Source of the DNA: Candidatus Thorarchaeota archaeon
GTDB taxonomy: Archaea > Asgardarchaeota > Thorarchaeia > Thorarchaeales > Thorarchaeaceae
Direction: 5' to 3'
DNA length: 64,000 nt
Assembly (NCBI GenBank): GCA_029855935.1
Contig: JAGSHN010000005.1
Location: 1-64,000, forward strand
Shown here: piece by piece, positions 17,826-19,424 of the stretch
How the letters are laid out: the number at the start of each line of letters is the position of its first letter
Position numbering within the stretch: the stretch's first letter is position 1
Translations under genes and position numbers: made by a program
Notes under the pieces: model-generated
Seen by the model: only the letters and a program-made list of their open reading frames with translations
What the model was told of the DNA's origin: nothing
The model's database searches: none

Positions 17826-18008
17826 ATGGGTCTAGGAGAATTTGTCAGGAGCAGTCTCAGAATACTGAGGCTGGCCACAAAGCCCTCACGGAAAGAGATG
17901 TGGATGAGCACAAAAGTCGCATTCCTAGCGATGATTCTAGTGGGTATGCTCAGCTTTATCGTACAGGTTCTCATGACCATAGTGACATCCAACTGGACCG
18001 GATCGTAG
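17826..18008 (+). CDS. secE: Preprotein translocase subunit SecE (Sec61 gamma)
   Basis: A 60-residue single-span protein that clamps SecY. A short amphipathic N-terminal helix (about 3-25, RSSLRILRLATKPSRKEMWM) is followed by one transmembrane helix (about 30-52, VAFLAMILVGMLSFIVQVLMTI), the standard archaeal SecE plan. It lies 91 nt after ftsZ and 38 nt before spt5. Confidence 0.9.
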   Translation: MGLGEFVRSSLRILRLATKPSRKEMWMSTKVAFLAMILVGMLSFIVQVLMTIVTSNWTGS

Positions 18009-18046: not shown

Positions 18047-18703
18047 TTGCCGCCAAGAACTAGTATTTTCGCGGTCAGAACGACCATAGGCCAAGAGAGA
18101 AGCGTCACCGATCTCATCACGACAGCCGTGATAGGAGAACCGGACATCTGGGAGTGCCCGTTCTGCTCCGAGCAATTCAATTCAGAGGAGGCAACACGCG
18201 AACATATGGCCACTTGCCCGAAGAAGAAGAGCACTGGTGAGCCGAAGCTCGTCTACAAGAATCCACTTCTCGGCCGTGTGAAGGCGATCCTAGTTCCAGA
18301 GACCCTGAGGGGATACGTCTTCATCGAAACTGAGGAGTACAGAGATGTGGAGATTGCAATATCGGGCGTGCCCCACGTCAGAGGTCGTGTCAGCGGAAAG
18401 GTCACAAAAGAGGAGATAGACAAGTATCTAGTGCCGAAGCCTGCAGCAGAGGGCATCTCCGTTTCTGACATTGTGGAGATAATCTCTGGACCCTTCAAGG
18501 GAGAGAGAGCCAAGGTCACCCGAGTCGACGCTGCAAAGGAGGAGTTGGTGATTGAGCTGATTGACAGCCCTGTCACCATACCGATGAGAATTCACGCGGA
18601 CTTCATCAAGCTTGTCGAGAAGGCGACAGAGGAGGAGGTCCCGGCCGGCGAGGCAGAGGAGGAGGGCGAGGAGGAAGAGGAGTCCTTCTGGTCGAGATCG
18701 TGA
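18047..18703 (+). CDS. spt5: Transcription elongation factor Spt5/NusG with inserted zinc finger and acidic tail
   Basis: A 218-residue protein; typical archaeal Spt5 is about 150. The NGN domain starts IFAVRTTIGQERSVTDLI, is interrupted by about residues 30-75, and resumes at KAILVPETLRGYVFIETE and VPHVRGRVSG. The insert holds CPFC-x12-HMATC (Cys37, Cys40, His53, Cys57), a C2HC zinc finger. A KOW domain follows (VEIISGPFKGERAKVTRVD, about 142-160), then an acidic tail (about 195-214) rich in Glu. The NGN domain normally binds RNA polymerase and Spt4. TTG 18047 is the only in-frame start close to the domain. Confidence 0.95.
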   Translation: MPPRTSIFAVRTTIGQERSVTDLITTAVIGEPDIWECPFCSEQFNSEEATREHMATCPKKKSTGEPKLVYKNPLLGRVKAILVPETLRGYVFIETEEYRDVEIAISGVPHVRGRVSGKVTKEEIDKYLVPKPAAEGISVSDIVEIISGPFKGERAKVTRVDAAKEELVIELIDSPVTIPMRIHADFIKLVEKATEEEVPAGEAEEEGEEEEESFWSRS

Positions 18704-18914: not shown

Positions 18915-19424
18915 GTGATTGTTTTGGGAGAGAAGATAACAGTCGAGGCACTAGTGGAGGGCGGAAAGGCCTCAGGAGGCCCGCCCATCGGTCCGGCACT
19001 CGGACCCACTGGAGTGAACATATTCCAAGTCGTACAGAAGATCAACGAGGTGACCAAGCCGTTTGAGGGACTGAAGGTCCCTGTGAAGATCATTGTCGAC
19101 CAAGAAACAAAGGAGTTCGAGGTTGAGGTAGGCGTTCCCCCCACAAGCGCTCTGATTCTCAAAGAGATCGGAGTGTCGAAAGGATCCTCCACACCGAACA
19201 CCGACTATGTTGGTAACCTCACGATTGATCAGCTGAAAGAGATTGCCAAGGCCAAGGCGGCCGAGCTGTCGGCGCTTGATATGAAGAGCGCAGTGATGAT
19301 AGTCGCGGGAACCTGTCTCTCGATGGGAGTGACCATCGAAGGCAAGAATGCCAAGGAGTTCCAGAGAGAGGTGCGAGAGGGTGTGTGGGACGAGCACCTC
19401 AACGAACCCCTGAGGGAGGAGTGA
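18915..19424 (+). CDS. rpl11: Ribosomal protein L11
   Basis: A 169-residue stalk-base protein that binds the GTPase-associated centre of 23S rRNA. The N-terminal domain has ALVEGGKASGGPPIGPALGPTG, the proline-rich L11 signature, with the C-terminal RNA-binding domain around LTIDQLKEIAKAKAAEL and IVAGTCLSMGVTIEGK. GTG 18915 is used, preceded by GAGGAG. It starts the L11-L1-L10-L12 cluster; gaps between members are 6-35 nt. Confidence 0.96.
   Translation: MIVLGEKITVEALVEGGKASGGPPIGPALGPTGVNIFQVVQKINEVTKPFEGLKVPVKIIVDQETKEFEVEVGVPPTSALILKEIGVSKGSSTPNTDYVGNLTIDQLKEIAKAKAAELSALDMKSAVMIVAGTCLSMGVTIEGKNAKEFQREVREGVWDEHLNEPLREE

Follow-up and report, generated by a model that had tools for sequence, protein, structure and literature searches.

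What does a zinc finger do in the middle of Spt5? The question is raised by a gene in a 64,000-nucleotide stretch of DNA from a Candidatus Thorarchaeota archaeon (hereafter the window), whose product is an archaeal Spt5 with a small predicted C2HC finger set into its NGN domain, the part that binds RNA polymerase. Spt5 is a universal transcription factor, and Thorarchaeota are an archaeal class related to the ancestors of eukaryotes. Below we describe the gene and the inserted segment, their distribution, and the position that the finger would take in the Spt4/5 complex.

The spt5 gene and its inserted finger

The spt5 gene (18047–18703, plus strand) starts with TTG and encodes 218 residues, comprising an NGN domain with the inserted finger, a KOW domain and an acidic tail. 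The gene order is ftsZ-secE-spt5-rpl11-rpl1-rpl10-rpl12, in which all names other than Spt5 were assigned by eye. The SecE-like ORF (17826–18008, plus strand) lies upstream of spt5 in the conserved ftsZ-secE-spt5 segment, and the ribosomal protein L11-like ORF (18915–19424, plus strand), recognised from its translation, lies downstream and is followed by the genes for L1, L10 and L12; these segments match those reported for Asgard archaea (PMC10833476). The window protein scored 144.8 bits against the archaeal Spt5 model TIGR00405 (cut-off 69.95), with a match that starts only at profile position 28, indicating that the NGN domain is split. The NGN and KOW domains scored 61.4 bits (PF03439) and 30.5 bits (PF00467), respectively, and the best solved relatives are the Spt5 proteins of Pyrococcus and Methanocaldococcus; the KOW domain (residues 137–190; 18455–18616, plus strand) also matches that of Mja and Pfu Spt5 in structure. 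The source genome encodes the partner protein Spt4 (contig 17 of G000; PF06093, 41.3 bits). The protein thus shares with archaeal Spt5 (TIGR00405; Mja, Pfu and Tko) the NGN and single KOW domains, the gene order, the Spt4 partner and the NGN core residues, and differs from it in that the NGN domain is interrupted by a C2HC finger and that a long acidic tail with a terminal SFW is present. Judged from its sequence, it is an ordinary archaeal Spt5 carrying an added finger in the NGN domain, and binding to the RNA polymerase clamp and to Spt4 is predicted from the residues it retains.

The first part of the NGN domain, strand beta-1 and helix 1 (residues 1–28; 18047–18130, plus strand), was delimited by alignment to other Asgard Spt5s, and the second, from beta-2 to the NGN end and including E94 (residues 77–130; 18275–18436, plus strand), by PF03439 and by comparison with the aligned Spt5s of Mja and Pfu. 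The inserted segment lies between these two parts and occupies approximately residues 29–76 (18131–18274, plus strand; about 48 residues). Read from the aligned sequences, helix 1 (...TTAV) is followed by IGEPDIWECPFCSEQFNSEEATREHMATCPKKK...GEPKLV..NPLLG and then by beta-2 (RVKAILVPE). The finger core (residues 33–57; 18143–18217, plus strand) displays the pattern C37-x2-C40-x12-H53-x3-C57, that is, an NGN domain split after its first helix with exactly the four ligands named in the original prediction. It is followed by a Lys-rich stretch (residues 58–63; 18218–18235, plus strand), which column counts place in most, not all, family members.

When the full-length window Spt5 was modelled with AF2 from a three-sequence input, the mean pLDDT was 44.6, with values of about 80–86 for residues 31–70. 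The isolated segment gave a mean pLDDT of 77.7 and a strand-strand-helix (beta-beta-alpha) arrangement, with block values of 84–90 over the finger. As the full-length model is poor outside the finger, the placement of the finger discussed below was not derived from it. Foldseek matched the finger model mainly to C2H2 and MYST C2HC fingers; the tightest superpositions had an rmsd of 0.4–1.3 A over 21–28 columns, with non-significant E-values (above 0.9) for this very short domain. A profile of 21 finger sequences matched solved C2H2 fingers with E-values from 2.6e-10, among them that of the archaeal-virus protein B-129, and the MOZ finger at E 0.0097. The Pfam family zf-C2H2_4 matched 23 of 25 members at E<=0.1, the window protein scoring below the gathering threshold. 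A single beta-beta-alpha finger of the C2HC type, predicted to bind zinc and set between helix 1 of the NGN domain and the strand that follows, as had been proposed, is supported by the motif and its conservation, by the predicted fold and by the profile matches to solved C2H2-type fingers. With classical C2H2 and MYST C2HC fingers it shares the C-x2-C-x3-F-x8-H-x3-C spacing, the predicted fold and the profile and structure matches, whereas it is single, is embedded in a transcription elongation factor, has Thr for the usual core Leu and has lost the fourth ligand in one genus.

Conservation in Thorarchaeota and distribution among archaea

Each of the 45 Thorarchaeal Spt5 genes that were read, from 13 genera, contains the insert, at a length of 46–50 residues; it is therefore neither a chance feature nor an assembly error. 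C37, C40 and H53 were each found in 45 of 45 sequences and C57 in 42; in genus g3 (L038, L039 and L040) all three species have Glu at the fourth ligand position and keep the remaining finger, and one Thorarchaeal species has H-x4-C spacing. The core positions F44 and T50 were conserved in 44 and 43 sequences, respectively. D33, P38, P66, N72, L74, G76 and R77, which lie in or around the insert, were invariant, pointing to a fixed placement of the finger. Summed over 12 close pairs, omega was 0.065 for the insert, as against 0.026–0.028 in the NGN and KOW domains and 0.133 in the tail. This indicates purifying selection on the insert, weaker than that on the two flanking domains.

TIGR00405 matches start at about position 24–28 in the Thorarchaeal genomes and at position 1–2 in the listed matches from other Asgard families, and none of the 44 Spt5s examined from 20 other Asgard families has the insert. 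A wider search covered 392 genomes and extended to other phyla of archaea; among its listed matches, those outside Thorarchaeota begin at positions 60–80 of the model, with the exception of those in two methanogen-like genomes (G227, locus L141, and G269, locus L140). These two proteins carry, at the same alpha-1/beta-2 site of the NGN domain, about 40–50 residues of coiled-coil repeats (REAEELN...) that contain no Cys, and related genomes of the same family are without the insert. Since the repeats are heptad-like and helical and have no zinc ligands, in contrast to the Thorarchaeal finger, they represent an independent event and were ruled out as relatives of the finger. Among the matches listed for another two archaeal phyla, with 246 and 194 genomes searched, no protein combined an NGN domain with the finger; the candidates checked there were plain Spt5s or unrelated fingers, and the match in G600 that had appeared to cover the finger proved to be a plain Spt5 aligned by chance. 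Viral contigs scanned with the Thorarchaeal and all-Asgard alignments yielded no relative, and no second copy of the finger was found in the source genome. The close relatives found in GTDB contigs all came from Candidatus Thorarchaeota.

The insertion looks class-wide in Thorarchaeota, the genomes compared listing no other family of the same order or class, and judging from the samples and the matches listed it is likely absent outside them. As the original prediction had it, then, the insert is not a common archaeal feature in this sample. The finger would have been inserted between NGN helix 1 and beta-2 in the ancestor of Thorarchaeota and retained since. An earlier description of an Spt5 finger was not found in the open-licence literature searched. 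Spt5, Spt4 and Elf1 are reported in a 2026 survey of the elongation factors of 218 Asgard proteomes, the main text of which, when searched, contained no mention of Thorarchaeota or of an Spt5 zinc finger (PMC13289920).

The same data bear on whether the finger does anything at all. It could be a neutral or structural ornament, a folded but functionally marginal spacer at an alpha-1/beta-2 site that tolerates insertions, as the unrelated coiled coil in G227 and G269, the ligand lost in genus g3 and the faster evolution of the insert relative to NGN and KOW would suggest. However, the omega of 0.065 and the residues that stay the same in all 13 genera indicate real constraint, and we regard this explanation as improbable.

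The acidic tail predicted after the KOW domain is indeed present (residues 193–218, ending in SFW; 18623–18700, plus strand), and its Phe-Trp pair (F214 and W215; 18683–18691) was invariant in 45 of 45 Thorarchaeal Spt5s. The accompanying claim that archaeal Spt5 normally has neither finger nor tail holds for the finger and fails for the tail: many other Asgard Spt5s (loci L009–L033 and L078–L093) end in acidic stretches with hydrophobic or aromatic tips, although the end motifs differ (for instance EEEEEDIFSEFFKT, EEDEWAKFDGF and EEEEELLEL), so that on this comparison the tail occurs more widely among Asgards and is not special to Thorarchaeota. The finger, the tail or both might serve as a docking site that brings a further Thorarchaeal protein, such as a termination nuclease, the ribosome, a histone or another partner, to the elongation complex. 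An aromatic knuckle (CP[FYW]C) and surface residues that are conserved would fit such a role, as would the invariant FW within the acidic tail. A histone-fold protein is encoded in most Thorarchaeal genomes, and in yeast Spt5 a histone-binding motif lies in the acidic N-terminal tail (PMC8886531); the link between tail and histone that these two observations suggest is only a lead. Similar acidic tails in Asgards that have no finger argue against docking, and a DNA pattern covering part of the possible codon spellings retrieved no second protein ending in SFW from the source genome. We consider a docking function unlikely.

Position of the finger relative to Spt4

In the alignment, V78 of the window protein corresponds to Mja V30 and E94, which is invariant in the Spt5 alignment, to Mja E46. 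From this alignment and the E. coli NusG sequence, we take E94 to be the Glu needed for Spt4 binding. That Glu, universally conserved in Spt5 and replaced by Gln in NusG, is reported to be essential if Spt4 is to bind (PMC7593976). In a simple beta-2/beta-3 hairpin register, E94 would lie opposite V78, which is two residues past the end of the insert.

Thorarchaeal Spt4 also turned out to carry a conserved loop insertion, newly described here, of about 8 residues (ILPGRDPHEDPRKTSYIAERL versus ILDPENSEIAKRL in others), directly before a helix (before SYIAERL). It was found in 30 of 30 Thorarchaeal Spt4s read (L102–L131, including L108) and in none of eight other Asgard Spt4s, and the Spt4 match lengths across all matches agree with it; a long match in G036 reflects another insertion, which lies between the zinc pairs. 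All four Spt4 cysteines are kept, and the idea that the finger replaces a lost Spt4 zinc ribbon was therefore rejected. Judging from published Spt4/5 structures, the start of the Spt4 helix presumably meets the Spt4-binding Glu. If so, the two Thorarchaeal insertions, the Spt5 finger and the Spt4 loop, would flank the same Spt4-Spt5 contact. A finger located beside the Spt4 interface is suggested both by the end of the insert, 1–2 residues before the part of beta-2 that faces E94, and by the Spt4 insertion, which directly precedes the helix thought to meet E94; this position depends on the alignment register and textbook topology. The original expectation that the insert lies near Spt4 thus gains indirect support, from V78/Mja V30 opposite E94 and from an Spt4 insertion confined to Thorarchaea.

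The reading that we favour, with a probability of about 0.5, is that an ancestral finger insertion acts as a fixed side module by the Spt4 interface and extends the Spt4/5 clamp. The finger would pack beside the Spt4-Spt5 interface and touch the extra Spt4 loop, as a rigid structural addition to the Spt4/5 clamp, which closes RNA polymerase over DNA, and in most species the Lys-rich stretch would add a general, non-sequence-specific contact to upstream DNA or nearby RNA. More tentatively, the paired insertions may have rebuilt the Spt4-Spt5 joint into a composite surface that is specific to Thorarchaeota and makes a regulatory contact; if true, this contact would be absent from the elongation complexes of other archaea and eukaryotes. 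It may also be that the two insertions, although they occur together in one clade, are unrelated events. A co-varying change in RNA polymerase was not apparent, as Rpo1N matches from Thorarchaeota and from other Asgards showed no length difference. As a separate observation, the gene for Rpo1N (RNA polymerase A') contains, in four genomes (G001, G081, G166 and G177), an in-frame interruption of about 1.5 kb at profile position 446–453, probably an intein.

Nucleic-acid binding and comparison with inserted NusG domains

C2H2-type fingers often bind nucleic acids, and the finger and its Lys-rich linker could form a nucleic-acid module that contacts upstream DNA, the non-template strand or nascent RNA and thereby controls processivity or pausing. 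Four to six Lys follow the finger in most members, and such a module would resemble the large domains that certain bacterial NusGs carry within the NGN, which have been proposed to add DNA contacts (PMC7593976). In contrast, the finger core is slightly acidic (-1.8 on average), finger helix positions 2 and 6 vary among members, and genus g12 (L070 and L071) is without the Lys run, with an insert charge down to -10. The Glu ligand of genus g3 and the missing Lys run of g12 show that neither full zinc ligation nor positive charge is universal. Moreover, in the T. kodakarensis complex NGN residues 12, 13 and 68 contact non-template DNA (PMC11616081), whereas the insert is at the end of helix 1 opposite that of residues 12–13. 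Such a module appears somewhat unlikely as the primary role, and sequence-specific DNA reading by the finger is unlikely, since the base-reading helix positions vary and the core is slightly acidic.

Domains inserted in the NGN are already known from Aquifex and Thermotoga NusG (PMC3382729), at a different site. There the insert replaces the NusG beta-hairpin loop, where Spt4 sits, and Spt5s are without insertions at that position (PMC7593976). The Thorarchaeal insert, on the other hand, is a predicted zinc finger between helix 1 and beta-2, with Spt4 retained, and as it is not at the beta-hairpin loop position it was rejected as a domain of the Aquifex/Thermotoga type.

In Thorarchaeota, a joint that is among the most conserved in transcription has apparently been remodelled. 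The Spt5 finger is a clear molecular marker for this class within the Asgard archaea, and a class-wide finger together with a change in Spt4 offers a natural test of which clamp-closing parts tolerate modification.
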